A stretch of 64,000 nucleotides of DNA from Mangrovibacterium diazotrophicum (GTDB lineage: Bacteria > Bacteroidota > Bacteroidia > Bacteroidales > Prolixibacteraceae). The stretch covers positions 3,087,320-3,151,319 of the forward strand of contig NZ_RAPN01000001.1 in NCBI RefSeq assembly GCF_003610535.1, read 5' to 3'. A program made the position numbers and the translations under genes. This document shows positions 25,830 to 40,540 of the stretch, in pieces. Numbering within the stretch: the first letter of the stretch is position 1; each line of letters opens with the position of its first letter. Under the pieces are notes generated by a model, which was not told where the DNA came from, did no database searches, and saw only the letters and a list, made by a program, of their open reading frames with translations.

Positions 25830-28800
25830 ATGAAACGTCTAACATCAATATGCCTGTCGCTGTTACTAACACTGCTAGCTAATTTAACGCACGCTCAATT
25901 TTCAGGCGACTTTGCCCCTTCAAACTGGGCCTTATACAGTGTCAGTTCCTATTCTGATGCATACGTCAACACCTCTGGAGCTCCAACGACGATCGTTTTC
26001 GGAGGAAATGATTCTGATTATGGAGACTATATGAGTGGTAATCTTTACGATGAATATTGGATTACAATCCCTTCCTCTTATTCCGATGGTTCAATCTCAT
26101 TTGATTGGAGTTTCGTAAATCCCGACATCGAAGCATTCTACTATGTAGTTAATAGTACTGAAACACATGTTGCATCTTACAACGACAGTGGAAGCTTAAC
26201 AATTCCGGTTTCTCCCGGTGACGTCTTCGCATTTCGAATTTATTCCTACGACGATTGCTGCGGACGAGGAGTTTTAACAATATCCAATTTCAACTCCAAT
26301 GCAGTCGTAAACTCTTCTCCTTCTTTTAATGCCGGCAGCTCAACCGATCTATCCCTTGCGCTGAATGCATCAGCAACTGCCATTAACGACAGCCTCGCAG
26401 TAACCGACACCGACTCAGGAGATGCCTTGTCGTGGACAGTAACCACAGCGCCATCTCATGGATCACTCGGCGGCTTCCCGGCTTCAGCAACCAGTACCGG
26501 CAGTGCCGTCACTCCAACAGGATTAACCTATACCCCGACCACAGATTATAGTGGTTCAGACTCATTTGTCATCCAGATCAGTGATGGCACAGAAACGGCG
26601 TCGATCACGGTAAACGTAACCATTAAAGCGACGCAAGCAATTACGTTTAATGCCATTGACAGTAAAACGTATGGTGATGCCGACTTCTCGCTGGGAAATG
26701 CCACAACCGATAAAGGTTTAACGGTAACTTATGCTGCCGCCGACCCAACTGTTGTTTCCATCAGCGGCAATACAGCGACAATACTCAAGGCAGGAACAAC
26801 CCAAATTACCGCAACACAAGCCGGCGATGCGACTTATGCAGCGGCCGATACCGTTAAACAAACGCTCGTAGTTAATAAGAAAGAACTAACGGTTACCAGT
26901 GCCGTTGCAGCAGACAAAACCTACGACGGTTCAACAACAGCAACCATCAGCGGAGCAAGCCTTAGCGGCATAGTCGACACAGATGTTGTAACACTGGGTA
27001 ACAGCACATCGGGTACCTTTGCCCAGGCGACAGTCGGCTCCGGAATTGCTGTCGGAACAAGCATGACAATCTCCGGTGACGACGCCGCCAATTACAGCTT
27101 GACACAACCGAGCTTAACCGCAGCCATTACAACGAAAGAATTAACAGTAACCGGCGCCAAGGCGTCCGACAAAGTTTACGATGGCTCAACAACAGCCACC
27201 ATCAGCGGAGCAAGCTTAAGCGGCGTCGTGGGAACCGATGCCGTAACATTAGCCAACAGCACCACTGGAACCTTTAATCAGGCAGCTGTCGGTTCGAGCA
27301 TCGTGGTAACAACTACCATGACGCTAAGCGGAGACGATGCGGCCAATTATACCTTGACCCAACCCAGCCTAAGCGCTGTCATTACCACCAAGTCAATCAC
27401 CGTTACTGCCGATGCTGATCAAAGCAAAGTATACGGCGAGTCCGATCCGACTTTCACGTATTCGGTATCTCCTGCCCTGGTGAGTGGTGATAATTTCTCG
27501 GGGGGACTAACCCGTGCTGCCGGTGAGGATGTAGATACTTATGCCATCGCACAAGGAACACTGACTGCCGGCTCAAACTACGATCTGACTTTCGTGGCTG
27601 ATAACTTCGCGATTACTCAAAAGGCAATTACTGTAACCGCCGATGCTGATCAGAGCAAAGTGTACGGTGAGATTGATCCTACTTTGACTTACTCAGTTGC
27701 TCCTGCTTTGGTAACTGGCGATAGTTTCTCGGGGGCACTTACCCGTGCTGCTGGTGAAGATGTAGATAGCTATGCCATCGCACAAGGAACACTGACTGCA
27801 GGCTCAAACTACGATTTGACTTTCGTAGCTGATAACTTCAGCATCACCCAAAAGGCAATTACGGTAACTGCGAATGCTGATCAAAGCAAAGTCTACGGCG
27901 AAACTGATCCTACTTTCACGTATTCGGTATCTCCTGCCCTGGTGAGTGGCGATAGCTTCTCAGGGGCACTTACCCGTGCTGCCGGTGAGGATGTAGCTAC
28001 TTATGCCATCGCACAAGGCACATTGACTGCCGGTTCAAATTACGTTTTGACGTTCGTAGCTGATAACTTCGCAATTACTCAAAAGGCAATCACTGTTACT
28101 GCAGATGCTGACCAAAGCAAAGTATACGGCGAATCCGATCCTACTTTGACTTACTCGGTTTCTCCGGCCCTGGTGAGTGGCGATAGCTTCTCGGGGGCAC
28201 TAACCCGTGCTGCCGGTGAAGATGTAGATACTTATGCCATCGCACAAGGGACATTGACTGCTGGTTCAAATTACGATCTGACTTTCGTAGCTGATAACTT
28301 CAGCATCACCCAAAAAGCAATCACCGTTACTGCCGATGCTGATCAAAGCAAAGTGTACGGCGAGACTGATCCTACTTTCACGTATTCGGTTTCGCCCGCT
28401 TTGGTGAGTGGCGATAGCTTCTCAGGGGCACTTACCCGTGCTGCTGGTGAAGATGTAGATAGCTATGCCATCGCACAAGGAACACTGACTGCAGGCTCAA
28501 ACTACGATTTGACTTTCGTAGCTGATAACTTCGCGATTACTCAAAAACCAATCACTGTTACTGCGGATGCTGATCAAAGCAAAGTGTACGGCGAAACTGA
28601 TCCGACTTTCACGTATTCAGTTTCTCCGGCTTTAGTAAGTGGTGATTCATTTACAGGTGCATTAACCCGTGCTGCCGGTGAAGATGTAGATAGCTATGCC
28701 ATCGCACAAGGAACATTGACTGCCGGTTCAAACTACGATTTGACTTTCGTAGCTGATAACTTCAGCATCACCCAAAAAGCAATTACGGTAACTGCGAATG

Positions 28801-30506
28801 CTGATCAAAGTAAAGTGTACGGCGAATCCGATCCTACTTTAACCTACTCGGTTTCTCCGGCCCTGGTAACTGGCGATAGTTTCTCGGGTGCATTAACCCG
28901 TGCTGCCGGTGAAGATGTAGATAGCTATGCCATCGCACAAGGGACATTGACTGCCGGCTCAAACTACGATTTGACTTTCGTTGCTGATAATTTCAGCATC
29001 ACCCAAAAGCCAATCACCGTTACTGCCGATGCTGACCAAAGCAAAGTGTACGGCGAAACTGACCCTACATTCACTTACTCGGTATCTCCAGATTTGGTAA
29101 GTGGCGATAGTTTCTCAGGGTCACTAACCCGTGCTGCCGGTGAAGATGTAAACACCTATGCCATCGCTCAAGGGACATTGACTGCCGGCACAAACTACGA
29201 CCTGACTTTCGTGGCTGATAACTTCAGCATCACCCAAAAAGCAATTACTGTAACCGCCGATGCTAGTCAAAGCAAAGTGTACGGCGAAACTGATCCAACC
29301 TTCACGTATTCAGTTTCTCCGGATTTGGTAAGTGGTGATTCATTTACAGGTGAATTAACACGCGAAGCCGGTGAAGATGCGGGCTCGTACGCCATCGAAA
29401 TTGGAACTCTAACAGCAGGTAGCAACTACGATCTGAGTTTTGTGAGTGCCGACTTTGTTATTGAGAAAGCCGCGCAAACAATAAGCTTTGACGCGATTCC
29501 TGTGAAGCATTTGGAGACAGATGACGACTTCCAATTGAACGCTACTGCAAGTTCAGGCCTCGCTGTCACCTACAGCTATACCTACAGCGCAGATCAAACT
29601 CCGGCGGAAGTTTCAGAAGAAGGATTTGTGTACTTGCTCACTTCCGGTGAAGTTGAAATTACAGCCATGCAAGCAGGCGACAACAACTATCTGCCAGCAG
29701 AAAACGTAAGTCAAACCCTGACCATTGAAAGCTCGGATGCCAGCATCCACCAACTGACAATTGACGGAGAGACCTACGAACAACCTGAACAGGAAATCTA
29801 TTACCAGATCGATTGCGGCGAAGAGGAGATCAGCGTAACAATCAGCTACATCACCGAACCGAATGCCAGCTCGAGCGAAGGCAGTACTTTCGTTATCGAT
29901 ACACCTGTCCCCGGAATCTATCGTCAATCAATTACGATTACCTCTCAGGATGGAACAACACAACAGACCTATCTCATCGTTGTTGAAAAGGCCTTCAACT
30001 TTGACGATATCGTGGTGCAGAAGTACAACAACGTCCTACTGGTGAACAACAACCCGGACAACAACGGAGGCTACACCTTTGTCGCCTACAAATGGTACAA
30101 AAACGGCGTTTTGATTGGCACCGGACAATACTATTCGGCCGGACAAAATGCATCGAACCAACTGGATCCGACAGCAAGCTACTCGGTAGAACTGACGACC
30201 AGCGAAGGAGAAGTGATCCACACTTGTGATTTCAGCATCGAGCTAAACAGTGCTTTTGCGTTAACCGTAACCCCGAACCCAGTTCAAGCCGGAAGTACGG
30301 TTCAGGTTGTGACCAACTACGATGACGATATGTTGAGCGATCGCACCATTCATGTAACCAACCTCTACGGAACCTCCGTTATGCAACAAGTTTCGGCAAG
30401 CAACAACACTTCGTTGACACTTCCGAACAGCCTGGCCCCGGGAACCTATGTGGTAACAACCGTCGCTTCGGGCGTCAGCCTTAATGCAAAAATCATTGTT
30501 CAATAA
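25830..30506 (+). CDS. Large T9SS-secreted adhesin-like protein with YDG and nine MBG repeats
   Basis: 1,558 residues. A signal peptide (1-23, ending THAQ) is followed by a carbohydrate-binding-like beta-sandwich (about 24-155). Next is an Ig/cadherin-like domain (about 165-265, TDTDSGDALSWTV ... YSGSDSFVIQISDG), then a first MBG-like unit. Two YDG repeats (KTYDGSTTATISGASLSG, about 352-520) precede nine tandem 77-residue MBG repeats (about 523-1215) with the VYGExDPTFTYSVSPALVSGDSF core. Two further beta domains follow. The end (LTVTPNPVQAGS ... LAPGTYVVTTV ... AKIIVQ) is a T9SS type A sorting domain. It should be exported by the type IX system and anchored on the cell surface. Adhesion is inferred, not shown. 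Confidence 0.85.
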   Translation: MKRLTSICLSLLLTLLANLTHAQFSGDFAPSNWALYSVSSYSDAYVNTSGAPTTIVFGGNDSDYGDYMSGNLYDEYWITIPSSYSDGSISFDWSFVNPDIEAFYYVVNSTETHVASYNDSGSLTIPVSPGDVFAFRIYSYDDCCGRGVLTISNFNSNAVVNSSPSFNAGSSTDLSLALNASATAINDSLAVTDTDSGDALSWTVTTAPSHGSLGGFPASATSTGSAVTPTGLTYTPTTDYSGSDSFVIQISDGTETASITVNVTIKATQAITFNAIDSKTYGDADFSLGNATTDKGLTVTYAAADPTVVSISGNTATILKAGTTQITATQAGDATYAAADTVKQTLVVNKKELTVTSAVAADKTYDGSTTATISGASLSGIVDTDVVTLGNSTSGTFAQATVGSGIAVGTSMTISGDDAANYSLTQPSLTAAITTKELTVTGAKASDKVYDGSTTATISGASLSGVVGTDAVTLANSTTGTFNQAAVGSSIVVTTTMTLSGDDAANYTLTQPSLSAVITTKSITVTADADQSKVYGESDPTFTYSVSPALVSGDNFSGGLTRAAGEDVDTYAIAQGTLTAGSNYDLTFVADNFAITQKAITVTADADQSKVYGEIDPTLTYSVAPALVTGDSFSGALTRAAGEDVDSYAIAQGTLTAGSNYDLTFVADNFSITQKAITVTANADQSKVYGETDPTFTYSVSPALVSGDSFSGALTRAAGEDVATYAIAQGTLTAGSNYVLTFVADNFAITQKAITVTADADQSKVYGESDPTLTYSVSPALVSGDSFSGALTRAAGEDVDTYAIAQGTLTAGSNYDLTFVADNFSITQKAITVTADADQSKVYGETDPTFTYSVSPALVSGDSFSGALTRAAGEDVDSYAIAQGTLTAGSNYDLTFVADNFAITQKPITVTADADQSKVYGETDPTFTYSVSPALVSGDSFTGALTRAAGEDVDSYAIAQGTLTAGSNYDLTFVADNFSITQKAITVTANADQSKVYGESDPTLTYSVSPALVTGDSFSGALTRAAGEDVDSYAIAQGTLTAGSNYDLTFVADNFSITQKPITVTADADQSKVYGETDPTFTYSVSPDLVSGDSFSGSLTRAAGEDVNTYAIAQGTLTAGTNYDLTFVADNFSITQKAITVTADASQSKVYGETDPTFTYSVSPDLVSGDSFTGELTREAGEDAGSYAIEIGTLTAGSNYDLSFVSADFVIEKAAQTISFDAIPVKHLETDDDFQLNATASSGLAVTYSYTYSADQTPAEVSEEGFVYLLTSGEVEITAMQAGDNNYLPAENVSQTLTIESSDASIHQLTIDGETYEQPEQEIYYQIDCGEEEISVTISYITEPNASSSEGSTFVIDTPVPGIYRQSITITSQDGTTQQTYLIVVEKAFNFDDIVVQKYNNVLLVNNNPDNNGGYTFVAYKWYKNGVLIGTGQYYSAGQNASNQLDPTASYSVELTTSEGEVIHTCDFSIELNSAFALTVTPNPVQAGSTVQVVTNYDDDMLSDRTIHVTNLYGTSVMQQVSASNNTSLTLPNSLAPGTYVVTTVASGVSLNAKIIVQ
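27396..29474 (+). repeat. Nine tandem 231-bp repeats encoding MBG domains
   Basis: Nine direct copies of a 231-base unit (77 codons) begin at 27396, 27627 and so on to the ninth ending at about 29474. The central copies differ at only a few positions, with the variants D/N in TADAD, S/T in GES/GET and A/P before ITVT shuffled between copies. The last two are more diverged. This indicates recent amplification or gene conversion. Confidence 0.92.
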
Positions 30507-31559: not shown

Positions 31560-31694
31560 AAACCCTTAAAGGGGCTTAAGCAAGCCAAATCAGGAGTATA
31601 AACTTTCATGCAGTAAAACCCCGGGCACCTCCATAACAAACGGTGCTCCACACTCAGCGAAGGCAAAAGTCCCCTTTAGGAGAATTAGGGGTTT
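31560..31694 (+). mobile_element. Candidate gene-less (MITE-like) derivative of the DUF559 element
   Basis: The left end (31560-31581) carries CCCTTAAAGGGGCTTAAGC and the right end (31650-31694) carries CAGCGAAGGCAAAAGTCCCC and TTAGGGGTT. These are the same ends, in the same orientation, that bracket the two DUF559 genes at 32537-32989 and 40000-40452. Here only about 70 unrelated bases lie between them. Confidence 0.5.
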
Positions 31695-32069
31695 TCCGGC
31701 TTTAGACGGTGACTTGCCTACTGACACCGTCCTTGTTTTACCCTCTAACTCCCTGAAGGGAGAACCAACAAGGACTGCATCTAAACGCAAATCCGGAGAC
31801 TCGCAAAACCTTAATCCAGTCCAACGGACTGCCAGCAATAGCCTGCGGCATCGCCGTAGGTTCTGTGATCATTGCAAATTGAATTGCCCTGAAGGGGCAA
31901 AAGCCATACTGAAATAATAGCTCACGCCCCTTTCAGGACTTTGGCCGATCCTCCATGGTCACAACAACAGGGCGCTGCCCTGCCCTGATGCTCGGGCACC
32001 GTTGGTGCATGGAAGAAAGATTTTGCATGCCTGCTCAAAGGCCAAATTCCCCTTTAGGGGATTTAGGGG
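31665..32069. repeat. Mosaic of short palindromes, array 1
   Basis: In order: a TCCCC/GGGGA unit (31665), CTCCCTGAAGGGAG (about 31749), CAGTCCAACGGACTG (31817-31831), CCTGCGGCATCGCCGTAGG (31842-31860), GCCCTGAAGGGGC (about 31884), GCCCCTTTCAGGAC, CAGGGCGCTGCCCTG, GCACCGTTGGTGC, then again a TCCCC/GGGGA unit (about 32041-32069). Each is its own small hairpin. The same units recur in the same order at 39360-39845. No coding potential. Confidence 0.75.
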
Positions 32070-32536
32070 TGTAAATCCGCCGAACTGCAATTATTCCTTG
32101 CCCCAAAAGCCACATAATATTCTCTTCAACACTCCGATCCAATTTTTTTATCCTCAGGCCGGATAGGCCTATCCTTTTCGATTTGATAAATATGGGGCGT
32201 TGCCCCAAACCCCACCTAACTTTTTGTCTTGACACAAAAAGTAGGCAAAAAAGTCAAGGCTGATTTTTATCGGCAACCTTCATCTTCCTGAAATCTAAGT
32301 TCAACGAGTGATTTCCTCCTTCGTCGGAACTTCTCGTTTACACTAAGCTTCCAGTTTGATTTTCGGTCTGGATAAAAATAGGCCGATTCAAAGCATTATC
32401 ACGATTGTGCAACTTTTGATCAGAGCGCCGACTGCACGCAGTCCCGATGAATCGGGACGAACGAAAACACGGAAGTGCGACGCGTAACAACATCTTGAGT
32501 TTTAGGAAACAATCGTTTATCTTAGTGTTCGACCCC
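32070..32536. other. Repeat-rich non-coding stretch before DUF559 copy 1
   Basis: It contains GGGGCGTTGCCCC (about 32193) and TTTTTGTCTTGACACAAAAA at 32221-32240 (a 7-bp inverted repeat related to one at 42880). From 32418 it holds a block starting GATCAGAGCGCCGACTG with CCCGATGAATCGGG, which is shared with 39880 and 42748. No gene was found. Confidence 0.55.
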
Positions 32537-32558
32537 AAACCCCTAAAGGGGCTTAAGC
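32537..32558 (+). repeat. Left inverted end of DUF559 element copy 1
   Basis: Contains CCCCTAAAGGGG followed by CTTAAGC. It is the shortened reverse complement of the right end at 32962-32989. It lies 10 bases before the ATG. The same sequence recurs at 31560, 33150 and 40000. Confidence 0.7.
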
Positions 32559-32568
32559 TATTTACAAG

Positions 32569-32991
32569 ATGAGTATAAGCAATCAGGTTTCCATGTTCTA
32601 TAATGCTAAGCCTCACATCTTTGAAAAGGCTAAAACACTGCGGGAAAATATGACGTCTGCGGAGCTCAACCTCTGGGAAAAACTAAAAAGGAGACAGGTC
32701 CTTGGACTACGGTTTCGTCCGCAACATCCAATTGACATTTTCATTGCTGATTTCTACTGCCATCCACTAAAACTGGTCATCGAGATTGATGGCGGTATTC
32801 ACCTGGTTCCGGAACATAAGGAATATGACATCGGACGGACAGCAGAACTAAACCAATGGGGCATCCAGGTCATTCGGTTTACCAATGAAGAAGTAGCAAA
32901 CAATCTGGAAAAAGTTGTCAGCCAAATCAACTTAATCTGTCGTCAAAAATTGAGCGAAGGCAAAGTCCCCTTCAGGGGATTTAGGGGTTAA
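32569..32991 (+). CDS. DUF559 endonuclease-domain protein, copy 1
   Basis: 140 residues of the DUF559 family, related to very-short-patch-repair (Vsr) endonucleases and other PD-(D/E)xK nucleases. The motif LRFRPQHPIDIFIADFYCHPLKLVIEIDGG carries the presumed metal ligands Asp61, Glu72 and Asp74. NQWGIQVIRFTNEEV follows, as in the family. The last eight residues (VPFRGFRG) and the stop codon are encoded inside the palindromic repeat 32962-32989. It differs from copy 2 (40032-40454) at five residues: N5D, E26K, S30T, V80A, E114D. No partner methylase lies nearby, and it probably acts on the repeats that frame it (inference). Confidence 0.85.
   Translation: MSISNQVSMFYNAKPHIFEKAKTLRENMTSAELNLWEKLKRRQVLGLRFRPQHPIDIFIADFYCHPLKLVIEIDGGIHLVPEHKEYDIGRTAELNQWGIQVIRFTNEEVANNLEKVVSQINLICRQKLSEGKVPFRGFRG
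32962..32989 (+). repeat. Right palindromic end of DUF559 element copy 1, overlapping the stop codon
   Basis: AAAGTCCCCTTCAGGGGA then TTTAGGGGTT. It contains the TCCCC/GGGGA hairpin and, as a whole, is the inverted counterpart of the left end. The stop TAA starts at its last base. Confidence 0.75.
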
Positions 32992-32999
32992 GCGTGCAC

Positions 33000-33258
33000 C
33001 AACCCAGTCCAACGGACTGCAAGCAACAGCCTGCGGCATCGCCGTAGGTGTTGGAATCATTGCAAATTGAATTGCCCGGAAGGGGCTCAACGAAAAACAC
33101 AGGGTTGCAACCACCATCCCGATCTCTGTGATCCAAATCAATGTTTTTTAGCCCAAACCCCTAAAGGGGCTTAAGCAAGCCTGGTCTGACAACAAGAAAA
33201 CAAACCTTCATCTCCGTCAATATTCGTAACTTACCATTTCAATCATTAATCAGGAGCC
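33000..33258. repeat. Palindrome units after DUF559 copy 1
   Basis: CAGTCCAACGGACTG (33005-33019), CCTGCGGCATCGCCGTAGG (33030-33048), GCCCGGAAGGGGC, then a left-end copy CCCCTAAAGGGGCTTAAGC (about 33153-33171) not attached to a gene. The last 85 bases before the acetyltransferase hold nothing recognised. Confidence 0.65.
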
Positions 33259-34336: not shown

Positions 34337-37300
34337 ATGAAAGAACTGGGCCTTTACGAGCAACTAATAAACAACCTCGTCCAAACCAAACTAAATAACC
34401 TTGATAGAACCGAATATTACATTGCAGAAAGCGTTATCGACCCAAATGAAGCCGCTGATGTTCTTTCACAATATCTCGTCAACAAATTAAAACTAGCATT
34501 CAACCTATTTACTGGCTCCAAGAAACTCGAACTCCAAATTGAGCTAGCAAATAAGATTATCATGCTACTGAAAGATGAGCTCAAAGAAGAGGATTTCAAA
34601 GAAGACATAATTGACACCAAAGCGAGAATACTCGACGCTATATTTTCTAAAATTGACGCGCCATTCACCGACTTTGACAGACATCTTAAAGAAATAACAC
34701 CTTATACCCGATTATCTCAAAGCGAACTGTTCACAGGGAGCAATGCGGGAATTTCGCTTGAAAGCGAAATCAAAAAGGAAATTCTTTCGTCGGATAAAAT
34801 CGACTTCCTTGTTTCGTTTATCAAGTGGAGCGGCATTCGAATATTCGAGAAAGAACTTACGGAGTTTACAAAAAGAGGCGGTCAACTAAGGGTAATAACA
34901 ACTTCCTACATGGGAGCCACTGACTTAAAAGCGGTCGAATTTCTAAGTGGTCTCCATAACACAGAAATCAAAATTTCCTACAACACAGAAAACGAACGTC
35001 TACACGCTAAAGCCTACTTATTTAAGCGAAACACAAAATTTGATACTGGCTATATTGGTTCCTCCAACCTTTCGAGATCCGCTTTAACCAGCGGATTGGA
35101 ATGGAACATGAAAATAACCACTCAAGAAGTACCGCATATCATTCAAAAGTTCGAAAAGACTTTTGAAACTTATTGGCACAATCAAGAATTCGAATTATTC
35201 GAAAAGGAGCGTGATTTTGATAAGTTAAGATCGGCATTAAAAAGAGAAAGACGCCGAGACACAACTATTCTAAGTGCATATTTTGATATCACCCCTCACC
35301 ACTTTCAAACGGAGATATTAGAAAAGTTAGAGGTTGAACGAACCATTCACAAGCGATTTCGCAATCTGATTGTAGCAGCCACAGGAACCGGTAAAACCGT
35401 AATTTCAGCTTTTGATTATCGAAACTTCAAAAAGAAGAACTCTTCAGCCCGACTGCTGTTTGTAGCTCATCGAAAAGAAATCTTACAACAGGCGATATCC
35501 ACCTACAGAGGTGTTTTAAAAGACAATAATTTCGGAGAATTATGGGTCGATGGTCTCGAACCTGAATCTTACGAGTATGTATTTGCATCTGTCCAAACAT
35601 TGAAAAACCGGATAGGTGAACTAACCTTAACTCAATCGTTTTATGACTTCATTATTATCGATGAAGTACACCACATTGCGGCATCTAGCTATCGACCAAT
35701 TCTAGGAAAGTTTAGTCCCAAAATTCTACTCGGTCTGACAGCGACTCCAGAAAGAATGGATAACGAAGATATTCTCCAAGATTTCTCGAATACAATCGCG
35801 GCGGAAATACGGCTACCAGAAGCACTAAACGGGAAACTACTTTGCCCATTTCAGTATTTCGGAATCACAGACAGCGTCGATCTTTCAAAAGTAAGTTGGC
35901 AAGCAGGGAAATACTCCACCGGCGAACTGACTAAACTCTATACCGAAAATGACCGTCGTGGTAGAGAAATAATCCAAAACCTGAATAAGTATCTGACCGA
36001 CCCAGAGCAAGTCCGCACTCTTGGATTTTGTGTTTCTCAAGAACACGCCGAGTTTATGTCAGAGAAATTTAAAATCGCAGGATTAAAGGCAGACTTCCTA
36101 ACTAGCTCTCGAAGTCACTTAAGGGAAGAACTGAGGTTAAAACTCCTTAATAAAGAAATCAACTACTTGTTCGTTGTCGATATTTTCAATGAAGGAGTTG
36201 ATATACCCGAAATTGACACCGTTCTATTCCTGAGACCAACCGAAAGCCTAACGGTATTCCTTCAACAACTTGGAAGAGGCTTACGTCTTTCTGAAGGAAA
36301 AGAATGTTTGACCGTACTGGATTTCGTTGGTAATTCGCGCCCCGAGTATGACTTCGAGGGAAAGTTTAGGGCGTTAGTTGGAAAAACGAATACATCCATT
36401 CAAAAAGAAATCAATGACGACTTCCCACACCTTCCTTTGGGTTGTTCTATCGTTCTTGAGAAAAAAGCAAAAGATTTTATCCTGAGCAATATCATTGAGG
36501 CGACTTCGATAAGCCAGAAAAAACTCATTCAAAAAATCAAGAATTTCCAGCACCAAACGAATCTGCCTCTTACGCTAGAAAATTTCACTAATTTCAATCA
36601 TATCCCACTCCAATTAGTTTACAAAAAGGCAAGTTGGAAAAGACTCTGTCAAGAAGCTGGTTTAATCCAAAACTTCGCGTCAATAAATGAAGCCGAAATA
36701 ACACGAGCAATCACAAAAAAATGGCTCTCATGCAGTTCAATATCCTATTTCGAATTTATCCTTCAACTGGCAAAAAACCATTTCAATGTCAATTTCCACG
36801 AACTCAATGAAAACGAAAGAACGATGTGCCTTATGTTGCATTACGACATCTGGCACAACCAAGGAAATTTTGATTCACTGGAAAAGAGTATTCAGGCGAT
36901 TGGCGAAAATAAGGTCTTAGTTGATGAGATTATAGAATTGATAGAAATATTAATTGATAGAATCGACTTCATGGAGTTGGACATCCATTTGCCGTTTGAA
37001 CAACCTCTAAAGGTACACGCCCGGTATACGCGCGACCAGATATTGGTTGCTTTCAGGCACAGTACTTTCGAACAAAAATCAAGCAATAGAGAAGGAAACG
37101 CAGAAAACAAAGAACTAAAGACCGACGTTCTTTTTATTGACTTAGATAAATCTGAAAAAGACTTTTCCCCAACAACACTATATAATGACTACGCAATCGA
37201 TGATTACCTATTCCATTGGCAGTCGCAAAATGCTTCTCGCCCAGATAAAGGGAAAGGTTTAAGTTATGTGAAGCATGTAGAATTAGAAAAACGAGTTCTA

Positions 37301-37477
37301 TTGTTTGTCCGAGAACGAAAAAAAGATCAATTCGACAACACAATGGGATATGTGTTTATTGGCGAGGGGAAAATTGTGGAACATTCAGGAGCCAAACCAA
37401 TGAATATAATTTGGAAGCTAGAAGAACCATTGCCTGCTTATCTTTGGAAAAGTTCAGCTAAAATGGCTATTGGTTAG
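34337..37477 (+). CDS. PLD-nuclease / SF2 helicase / DUF3427 fusion, candidate defence protein
   Basis: 1,046 residues. An N-terminal helical region is followed by a phospholipase-D-like (HKD) nuclease domain, with LHAKAYLFK (His at about 223) and GYIGSSNLSRSALTSG. The SF2 helicase then has Walker A ATGTGKT (about 348-354), motif II DEVH (about 442-445), LTATPERMD, and the C-terminal motif FLQQLGRGLRLSEG. A central unknown region and a C-terminal DUF3427 domain (about 870-1040, SPTTLYNDYAIDDYLFHWQSQ ... GYVFIGEG) complete it. It resembles the COG3886+COG1061 stand-alone DNA helicase/nuclease proteins often found in defence islands. It lies in an accessory zone without restriction partners. 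Cytoplasmic; likely acts on DNA. Confidence 0.88.
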   Translation: MKELGLYEQLINNLVQTKLNNLDRTEYYIAESVIDPNEAADVLSQYLVNKLKLAFNLFTGSKKLELQIELANKIIMLLKDELKEEDFKEDIIDTKARILDAIFSKIDAPFTDFDRHLKEITPYTRLSQSELFTGSNAGISLESEIKKEILSSDKIDFLVSFIKWSGIRIFEKELTEFTKRGGQLRVITTSYMGATDLKAVEFLSGLHNTEIKISYNTENERLHAKAYLFKRNTKFDTGYIGSSNLSRSALTSGLEWNMKITTQEVPHIIQKFEKTFETYWHNQEFELFEKERDFDKLRSALKRERRRDTTILSAYFDITPHHFQTEILEKLEVERTIHKRFRNLIVAATGTGKTVISAFDYRNFKKKNSSARLLFVAHRKEILQQAISTYRGVLKDNNFGELWVDGLEPESYEYVFASVQTLKNRIGELTLTQSFYDFIIIDEVHHIAASSYRPILGKFSPKILLGLTATPERMDNEDILQDFSNTIAAEIRLPEALNGKLLCPFQYFGITDSVDLSKVSWQAGKYSTGELTKLYTENDRRGREIIQNLNKYLTDPEQVRTLGFCVSQEHAEFMSEKFKIAGLKADFLTSSRSHLREELRLKLLNKEINYLFVVDIFNEGVDIPEIDTVLFLRPTESLTVFLQQLGRGLRLSEGKECLTVLDFVGNSRPEYDFEGKFRALVGKTNTSIQKEINDDFPHLPLGCSIVLEKKAKDFILSNIIEATSISQKKLIQKIKNFQHQTNLPLTLENFTNFNHIPLQLVYKKASWKRLCQEAGLIQNFASINEAEITRAITKKWLSCSSISYFEFILQLAKNHFNVNFHELNENERTMCLMLHYDIWHNQGNFDSLEKSIQAIGENKVLVDEIIELIEILIDRIDFMELDIHLPFEQPLKVHARYTRDQILVAFRHSTFEQKSSNREGNAENKELKTDVLFIDLDKSEKDFSPTTLYNDYAIDDYLFHWQSQNASRPDKGKGLSYVKHVELEKRVLLFVRERKKDQFDNTMGYVFIGEGKIVEHSGAKPMNIIWKLEEPLPAYLWKSSAKMAIG

Positions 37478-38971: not shown

Positions 38972-39880
38972 AACTTTGGGTTTAAATCAGTTTTATAAAA
39001 TTGATCTTCGGGGTCACCTGCATGCTTGTCGAGGGCACAGGTGGCCTCTTTTCGTACCACTCAGGGCGGCTGCCGCGGCGTGTACACACACCAGGGGTGC
39101 GCGTGATCATCAAGCGTTCAAAAAAATAGAATGATCAAAACGAGTTAAACCATCGGATTTGAAGTTGATTGGGTTCGGCTTTTATTCGTAACTAAATTAT
39201 GAAAACAACCAGCGTAAGTTAAAGTGTTTTAGGACATAGGATCATAGCGTATGGAGGTAGGAGCATGGTGTTTGGAGAGGAAATGGGTGTGGTTTGGACG
39301 GACTCTTCGCTGAGTTGAATCATTCCATTTTGGTCTCCCGTGAGAGGTACAAAGCAGTATAAACAAAATAGCTTGCGCCCCTTCAGGGCTTTGGCCGATC
39401 CTCCATGGTCCCAACAACAGGGCTTTGCCCTGCCCTGATGCTACGGCACCGTTGGTGCATGGGAGAAAGATTTTGCATGCCTGCTCAAAGGCAAAGTCCC
39501 CTTCAGGGGATTTAGGGGTTAAAAACATCAATGGCATAGACCCGTCCTTGCCACCCTCTAACTCCCTGAAGGGAGAACCGGCAAGGGCTACATCGGAACG
39601 TGAATCCGGAGAATCGCAAAGAGAAATCACTCGTAAAACCCTAATCCAGTCCAACGGACGGCAAGCAACAGCCTGCGGCATCGCCGTAGGTTTTGGAATC
39701 GTTGTAGATTGAATTGCCCTGAAGGGGCTAAAGATTCACGATCAAAAATAGCTCACGCCCCTTCAGGGCTCTGGCCGATCCTCCGTAATCCCTGCAACAG
39801 GGCGTTGCCCTGCCCTGATGCCCCGGCACCGTTGGTGCGTCGGTGATTAATGTTTACTGCCCGGAATACATCGCAAGCTG
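38972..39880. repeat. Non-coding stretch with heptad tract and palindrome array 2
   Basis: About 39000-39230 holds nothing recognised. 39232-39280 is a heptad tract (GGACATA, GGATCAT, AGCGTAT, GGAGGTA, GGAGCAT, GGTGTTT, GGAGAGG). 39360-39845 is the second palindrome mosaic: GCCCCTTCAGGGC, CAGGGC...GCCCTG, GCACCGTTGGTGC, TCCCCTTCAGGGGA (about 39498), CTCCCTGAAGGGAG, CAGTCCAACGGAC (39647), CCTGCGGCATCGCCGTAGG (39672-39690), GCCCTGAAGGGGC, then the first three units again. Unit order equals array 1 in a circular sense. Confidence 0.7.
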
Positions 39881-40540
39881 ATCAAAGCGCTCGACTGCGC
39901 GCAGTCCCGAGGATTCGGGACGAACGGAAACTCGGAAGTGCGACGCATAACAACATCTTGAGTTTTAGGAAACAATCGTTTATCTTAGTGTTCGACCCCA
40001 AACCCCTAAAGGGGCTTAAGCTATTTACAAGATGAGTATAAGCGATCAGGTATCCATGTTCTATAATGCTAAGCCTCATATCTTTGAAAAGGCTAAAACA
40101 TTGCGGAAAAATATGACCACTGCGGAGCTCAACCTCTGGGAAAAACTAAAAAGGAGACAGGTCCTTGGACTACGGTTTCGTCCGCAACATCCAATTGACA
40201 TTTTCATTGCTGATTTCTACTGCCATCCACTAAAACTGGTCATCGAGATTGATGGCGGTATTCACCTGGCTCCGGAACATAAGGAATATGACATCGGACG
40301 GACAGCAGAACTAAACCAATGGGGCATCCAGGTCATTCGGTTTACCAATGAAGAGGTAGCAAACAATCTGGACAAAGTTGTCAGCCAAATCAACTTAATC
40401 TGTCGTCAAAAATTGAGCGAAGGCAAAGTCCCCTTCAGGGGATTTAGGGGTTAAGCGCTCGACTGCACCAGTCCAGTCCAACGGACTGCAAGCAACAGCC
40501 TGCGGCATCGCCGTAGGAATTGGAATCATTTCAAATCATT
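39880..40540 (+). mobile_element. DUF559 endonuclease repeat element, copy 2
   Basis: Near-identical to 32418-33070 from the GATCAAAGCG block through the gene to CCTGCGGCATCGCCGTAGG (40499-40517). Left end at 40000-40021, right end at 40425-40452. A diverged right end (AAGTCTCCTTCAGGAAGTTT, about 40569) follows after the element. Confidence 0.55.
40032..40454 (+). CDS. DUF559 endonuclease-domain protein, copy 2
   Basis: 140 residues, identical to the protein at 32569-32991 except for five substitutions (D5, K26, T30, A80, D114). The proposed catalytic residues Asp61, Glu72 and Asp74 are conserved, as is the repeat-encoded tail VPFRGFRG. Both copies being intact and conservative argues for selection or very recent duplication. 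No methylase, recombinase or other mobility gene is adjacent. A DNA nick or cleavage role at palindromic sites is inferred from context only. Confidence 0.85.
   Translation: MSISDQVSMFYNAKPHIFEKAKTLRKNMTTAELNLWEKLKRRQVLGLRFRPQHPIDIFIADFYCHPLKLVIEIDGGIHLAPEHKEYDIGRTAELNQWGIQVIRFTNEEVANNLDKVVSQINLICRQKLSEGKVPFRGFRG

Follow-up and report, generated by a model that had tools for sequence, protein, structure and literature searches.

Several described systems share features with the units reported here. The EDxHD homing endonuclease I-Bth0305I is housed in a group I intron and has extra DNA-binding domains, and proteins of the DUF559 family are Vsr-like. RAYTs are HUH tyrosine transposases whose REP palindromes carry a GTAG tag (PMC3733652, section drawn on here), and Rickettsia palindromic elements (RPE) are palindromic repeats lying in frame in protein genes, with no associated nuclease mentioned in the same section of that source. 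ShiLan-type homing insertions in phage methylases are non-splicing, nuclease-tied and readable in frame with the host gene; their HNH nuclease is itself out of frame, and the available portion of the source mentions no terminal repeats (PMC11855218). An intrastrand triplex motif, earlier called BoxC or PIT, is present in 23 copies in E. coli K-12 and in more than 260 bacterial genomes (Holder et al., 2015; PMC4666352, available text). In the same text its origin is described as unclear, transposases and integrases as never being nearby and its loci as prone to rearrangement in E. coli; a stem of at least 6 nt belongs to the ITxF search rule, no word begins with 'nuclease' and no gene is tied to the motif.

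The DUF559 units resemble REPtrons in having a lone nuclease gene with a palindrome at each end and many free solo and paired repeat copies, some of them inside genes; the enzyme, however, is a DUF559 protein and not an HUH tyrosine transposase, and the repeats carry no GTAG tag. With I-Bth0305I they share catalytic-domain homology (from profile matching) and presence or absence at conserved sites, whereas no intron or intein is apparent around DUF559, only terminal palindromes. Like RPE, the palindromes can lie in frame in protein genes, although the RPE sequences differ from those around DUF559. Readability in frame and the tie to a nuclease are common to ShiLan-type insertions and DUF559, but the latter lies itself in frame and is palindrome-bounded and, unlike an insertion sequence, the unit has no transposase or recombinase of its own. 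Because the defining features of REPtrons and insertion sequences fail and no intron or intein is apparent, we regard the unit as a new kind of element built of known parts, which on a cautious view could be a variant of the REP-plus-nuclease kind. It is probably a small selfish mobile element, comprising a homing-type nuclease (DUF559) with its own terminal repeats and spreading by cutting and repair.

The window (the whole stretch of 64,000 nucleotides of Mangrovibacterium diazotrophicum DNA analysed here) contains two units of 650 bp that can be aligned throughout (Table 1), each with an intact DUF559 gene whose product matches PF04480 with E-values of 3e-32 and 1e-32 respectively (111.1 and 112.6 bits in a profile search, against a curated cut-off of 20.6 bits; YcjD of E. 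coli scores 167 bits). The two 140-amino-acid proteins differ at five residues, and the ten nucleotide changes between the genes comprise five silent and five amino-acid changes, giving no sign of constraint between the two window copies. The last nine codons of the open reading frame lie inside the right palindrome. With up to three mismatches allowed, the left-end and right-end patterns were each found at five places in the window, the units included, against 0.03 and 0.00 expected, and the two window units exceed chance. The arms of these ends are short (4 bp), and the same-region bracketing test gave a borderline result for the inverted pair (p=0.046 for one unit, p=0.053 for the other); the direct-repeat test found no significant flanking repeat at either window unit. 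DUF559 is the sole ORF of at least 80 amino acids wholly between the ends, with no recombinase or transposase there. The preliminary description had already reported two nearly identical units with intact genes, five differences per 140 residues, ends that are inverted counterparts, single ends lying free elsewhere and the lack of a recombinase, and in all of this it was borne out; the span that it gave to each unit does mark the two duplicated units, but exceeds the palindrome-to-palindrome element and takes in two other repeats. A further, gene-less pair of ends in the window is possibly a nuclease-less derivative of the unit.

Table 1. Features of the two DUF559 units and of related palindromes in the window.
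Feature	Position	Strand	Description and basis
Palindromes resembling the left end (1 mismatch) and the right end (3 mismatches), about 90 bp apart, no nuclease gene between	31560..31693	+	Patterns, by eye
Free right-end copy (1 mismatch)	32049..32069	+	Pattern
Duplicated unit 1, with flanking repeats A (left) and B (right)	32417..33067	+	Alignment, genome matches
Left end, unit 1	32533..32558	+	CCCC-AAA-CCCC-TAAA-GGGG-CTTAAGC (tail, hairpin); sequence and pattern counts
DUF559 nuclease gene, unit 1 (140 aa)	32569..32991	+	ORF, profile match, conserved residues in alignment
Right end, unit 1	32962..32993	+	AAAGT-CCCC-TTCA-GGGG-ATTTA-GGGG-TTAAGC; inverted relative to left end, overlaps 3' end of gene
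Free left-end copy	33158..33175	+	Pattern
Free right-end copy	39498..39518	+	Pattern
Duplicated unit 2, whole	39879..40536	+	Alignment
Left end, unit 2	39996..40021	+	Sequence, pattern count
DUF559 nuclease gene, unit 2 (140 aa)	40032..40454	+	ORF, profile match
Right end, unit 2	40425..40456	+	Sequence, pattern count

The duplicated stretch extends about 115 bp further to the left and about 75 bp further to the right than the palindrome-to-palindrome element, reaching into the two flanking repeats, and the window pair could therefore also stem from recombination between repeats; since the stretch is longer than the element, local duplication alone is no proof of transposition. The flanking sequences belong to two intergenic repeat families, AGCGC..GACTGCACGCAGTCCCGATGAATCGGGACGAACG and CCAGTCCAACGGACTGCAAGCAACAGCCTGCGGCATCGCCG (32418-32487 and 33001-33070), of which unit-free copies occur at five loci. 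A profile search found three DUF559 genes in the genome, the third of which (L024) lies, by eye, between CCCCTAAAGGG- and CCCTTTAGGG-type palindromes; its bracketing test gave p=0.065 with only 30 control positions. A stricter end pattern occurred at 11 places in the genome and the reversed pattern at none. Seven free copies in the same genome (L010-L014, L016 and L020) were recognized by eye as end pairs without a gene, three of the free end pairs match the units' right end at 29/29 bases, and doublets of this genome such as L011 show, by eye, arms of 7 bp. Some end pairs also seem, by eye, to be placed within larger structures, either inside a MITE-like inverted repeat that starts near AGGCTGTCC or GAGGATGTCC (L010, L014 and L016) or within a different repeat that has the form CGCTCGCAATGACGG / CGTCATTGCGAG (L011 and L012).

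Among PDB entries, the DUF559 profile search matched 3hrl, an endonuclease-like protein, and 3r3p ('Mobile intron protein'; E 5.8e-7 over 72 profile positions), which we take to be I-Bth0305I. Judged by this match, the DUF559 catalytic domain is homologous to that EDxHD homing endonuclease, and one DUF559 gene is assigned to the EDxHD homing family in the available part of PMC9403480. No HUH/Y1 transposase match was obtained for the window protein, for which the profile search returned only DUF559 and a sub-threshold nuclease model.

PF04480 is present in 82/120 genomes of the family and 222/395 of the phylum. From these two lists, every fourth row among the best 81 and the best 77 rows was taken, with row 61 (own genome) skipped, and the resulting 40 loci lean to good family members, as the lists were ranked by E-value. 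The 300 bp on each side of the domain were compared with positions of the same geometry in the same stretch, and an inverted palindrome pair at p<0.05 was found at 25/40 loci (two expected), with a score of at least 14 at 21/40 loci compared with 0.48% of same-region control positions. Scanning named genomes with a query derived from three bracketed loci gave 562 confirmed places, of which the best 80 were kept; seven had stretches too short for the bracketing test. The loci span Proteobacteria, Chloroflexi, Planctomycetes, Nitrospirae, Verrucomicrobia and other groups, according to record titles. Here, an inverted pair at p<0.05 was present at 62 of the 73 testable loci, and 51/73 reached a score of at least 16 compared with 0.49% of 9056 control positions; the typical bracket reads CCCCTCTCCC-loop-GGGAGAGGGG-TTGGGGTGAGGG, in inverted orientation. 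The pair was missing at this threshold in 15/40 relative loci and 11/73 named loci. Private matching of the left and right ends within each unit was seen only in part, with a unit's own right end being the best match of its left end in only 12/42 loci. Most orthologues sampled carry the palindromes, so that the first refuting condition of the preliminary description (orthologues elsewhere without them) turned out in its favour, and the association of nuclease and repeat is general across many phyla and supported well beyond the window.

The triplex form, with three blocks C-G-G and a tail mirroring the purine arm, is seen around DUF559 genes in general. The tail matched the purine arm better as a mirror than as a direct copy by 104 to 38 among 307 hairpins of the named loci, and by 55 to 24 among 133 hairpins of the first sample (relatives), with ties making up the rest. 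Outside Bacteroidota, the elements around DUF559 genes have the same sequence and three-block layout as the BoxC/PIT/TMECO triplex motif, and the E. coli sequences in Table 1 of PMC4666352 (available text) are of the form found around these genes. At the window ends the three-block layout was recognized by eye only, and their 4-bp arms are below the 6-nt stem cut-off of the triplex motif in that text. By sequence comparison, the repeat outside Bacteroidota is the already known BoxC/PIT/triplex element, for which no mover has been described, and on this point the preliminary description of a candidate new element needs correction.

In many relatives, the DUF559 domain lies within an uninterrupted long frame. 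In Pfam searches it had domains belonging to the host protein on both sides in IleRS-type, ValRS-type, LeuRS, MetH, HsdR and HsdM proteins and, in other phyla, in an HrpA-like helicase, ValRS, MetRS and an N6/N4 methylase (IleRS and HrpA were named by sequence recognition). Host reading frames continue unbroken across the insertion, with only short peptides, translated from the palindromes, flanking the domain on both sides, and Pfam detected no intein domain in six host proteins. An alignment of 15 free-standing and in-frame DUF559 sequences has twenty invariant columns in common; a D and an E-x-D are among the conserved residues of the protein. For the ValRS-site nuclease, a low median dN/dS of 0.08 was observed (31/36 pairs with computable dS, which was high), and at the IleRS site the median was 0.09 in 5/28 pairs, consistent with a working nuclease. 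At nine loci, the same ValRS genes have a further site with palindrome-type peptides and no nuclease domain.

Presence and absence alleles were observed at two of these sites in one genus of 23 genomes. At the ValRS site, the 20 genomes read comprised eight full, ten empty and two solo alleles, the latter with the right-end palindrome only; a second ValRS match of one genome (G516) was left out of this count since its anchors did not fit. The IleRS site was full in three and empty in 17 of the 20 genomes read. By eye, the insertion replaces about five codons of the empty allele in ValRS and about nine in IleRS. The empty sites that the preliminary description had proposed to look for thus exist at these two sites, but none was found for the window units, whose neighbouring GNAT gene is absent from the other three genus genomes searched. 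In a quick tree of 88 nuclease domains (84 different), built from few columns and with 36/81 inner branches open, the copies in metabolic hosts form one group (SH-aLRT 93), which includes two rows labelled free-standing, and one ValRS-site group branches inside the IleRS-site sequences (support 87-90), suggesting that the domain has moved from one host gene to another. In this tree the window proteins are most closely related to L111, L113 and L114, from three further genera of the family, and DUF559 is the only gene that these loci have in common with the window (blastp, ORFs >90 amino acids), while permease-like arrays are common to L113 and L114. Both window-type ends are present in L111 and L113; L114 has the window-type right end and a left palindrome in opposite orientation. 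Around the L113 unit, 57 bp from the 3' end of the permease-like gene before it are directly duplicated (56/57 identical). Flanking direct repeats at p<0.05 were found for 24/44 units, the window units not being among these, and because many such repeats hold palindromes or reflect tandem copies, we claim L113 alone as a clear target duplication.

Repeat copy number was observed to track the nuclease. In a family sample of 147 genomes, centred on Dyella sp. C11 (G550, 86 copies) and counted for one repeat form, at least five copies were present in 57/91 genomes with a strong DUF559 match (E<=1e-20) versus 3/56 without (Fisher p 5e-13, shared descent ignored), with medians of nine and zero copies respectively; reversed-pattern controls gave zero in every row listed. 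Exceptions were the 21/91 strong-match genomes without any copy of the form searched and, among those without a strong match, G667 (39 copies, weak match), G600 (six copies, intermediate match) and G661 (seven copies, no match).

The DUF559 gene of E. coli is ycjD, and in K-12 TMECO no. 9 is located on the 3' side of this gene, at a distance of 168 bp, with no repeat on the 5' side of ycjD. At the sensitivity of blastn, ycjD was matched in 3365/5426 E. coli genomes and gave no match in 2061. When the ranking was sampled at even intervals (60 records), those with ycjD (37, several of which are laboratory derivatives of one another) had a median of 17 repeat places (11-25) versus six (1-13) in the 23 without (p 2e-10, shared descent ignored). 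Three E. coli strains considered for a clean ycjD empty site were rejected, as an efflux operon lies upstream of fabI and the locus is rearranged, not simply empty; their match to the K-12 ycjD region is confined to its fabI end and starts about 40 bp beyond the K-12 repeat close to ycjD.

The link between nuclease and repeat, which the preliminary description had drawn from position, is well supported by the bracketing (40 + 73 loci), the full, empty and solo alleles, the L113 duplication and the copy-number tracking. In the mobile element that we favour, each repeat is a short hairpin plus a tail mirroring its purine arm, a motif known elsewhere to fold as an intrastrand triplex. The DUF559 nuclease would recognize and cut DNA at or beside the folded repeat, and repair of the break would copy the repeat alone (solo), two ends (doublet) or the ends plus the gene into a new place. 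Ends readable as codons, for PSP..GEG-type peptides, also allow the unit to sit in frame in loops of essential proteins. We infer both the cutting and the repair-based copying, and the latter seems at least as likely as RAYT-style hairpin processing, given that the homology of the nuclease is to an EDxHD homing endonuclease and not to a RAYT. The preliminary description had drawn the RAYT analogy, which captures the palindromes framing a nuclease gene and the many free copies but not the ancestry of the enzyme. In a RAYT-like process the nuclease would act on single-stranded terminal hairpins during replication or transcription, excising and re-inserting the ends with no double-strand-break homing, and the ends are indeed hairpins with a guide-like tail, with free copies, solo or paired, that are arranged much like REPs and BIMEs. 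We nevertheless consider this unlikely, given that DUF559 has no HUH/Y1 transposase match, that the solved structures nearest to it are those of an endonuclease-like protein and a homing endonuclease, and that the L113 duplication and the direct repeats at other units fit break repair or recombination better.

Very unlikely, in our judgement, is a host-serving role, in which a Vsr-like repair or anti-phage nuclease would target the triplex-forming repeat and the repeats would be host tools or by-products. The Vsr-like nature of DUF559, the low dN/dS at the ValRS site and the many E. coli genomes with ycjD agree with such a role, whereas patchy presence (including the E. coli genomes with no ycjD match by blastn), several copies per genome, in-frame insertion in varied hosts and target duplication are typical of selfish elements. 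Repeats might otherwise cluster in unstable intergenic regions where DUF559 genes merely accumulate with no mechanistic link, a view to which the rearrangement-prone E. coli loci (PMC4666352, available text) and the further unrelated repeats in which the window units are embedded lend something. It is likewise very unlikely when set against bracketing about a hundredfold above same-region controls, palindrome-encoded peptides that frame the domain inside essential ORFs and a repeat copy number that tracks the nuclease. Beyond the selfish element itself, we lean slightly towards a wider proposition, that DUF559 and triplex-forming palindromes make up an undescribed, phylum-spanning class of mobile element whose nuclease would read the folded triplex or hairpin, with YcjD moving the BoxC/PIT repeats of E. 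coli.

A literature search, with subscription papers mostly outside it and preprints not covered, found no DUF559-palindrome system; no paper covered had DUF559 together with 'tRNA synthetase', and those that had it with 'palindromic' were, to judge by their titles, on other subjects. BoxC/PIT repeats have been known since the 1990s with no explained origin, and the DUF559 link would supply the missing mover, provide a large, functionally uncharacterized family with a role and explain the odd nuclease domains inside tRNA synthetases and MetH. If true, a nuclease that reads a folded repeat and is tolerated in frame in essential genes would give selfish DNA a new means of persisting.

Two other genes of the window were noted. 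Between the two units lies a helicase-like gene for a product of 1046 amino acids (34337-37477), with matches to the type I restriction R subunit and RadD below their cut-offs. Positions 25830-30506 encode a 1558-amino-acid protein in which many nearly identical domains are arrayed in tandem; its C-terminal stretch falls slightly short of the cut-off for a T9SS sorting tail (22.3 against 23 bits).
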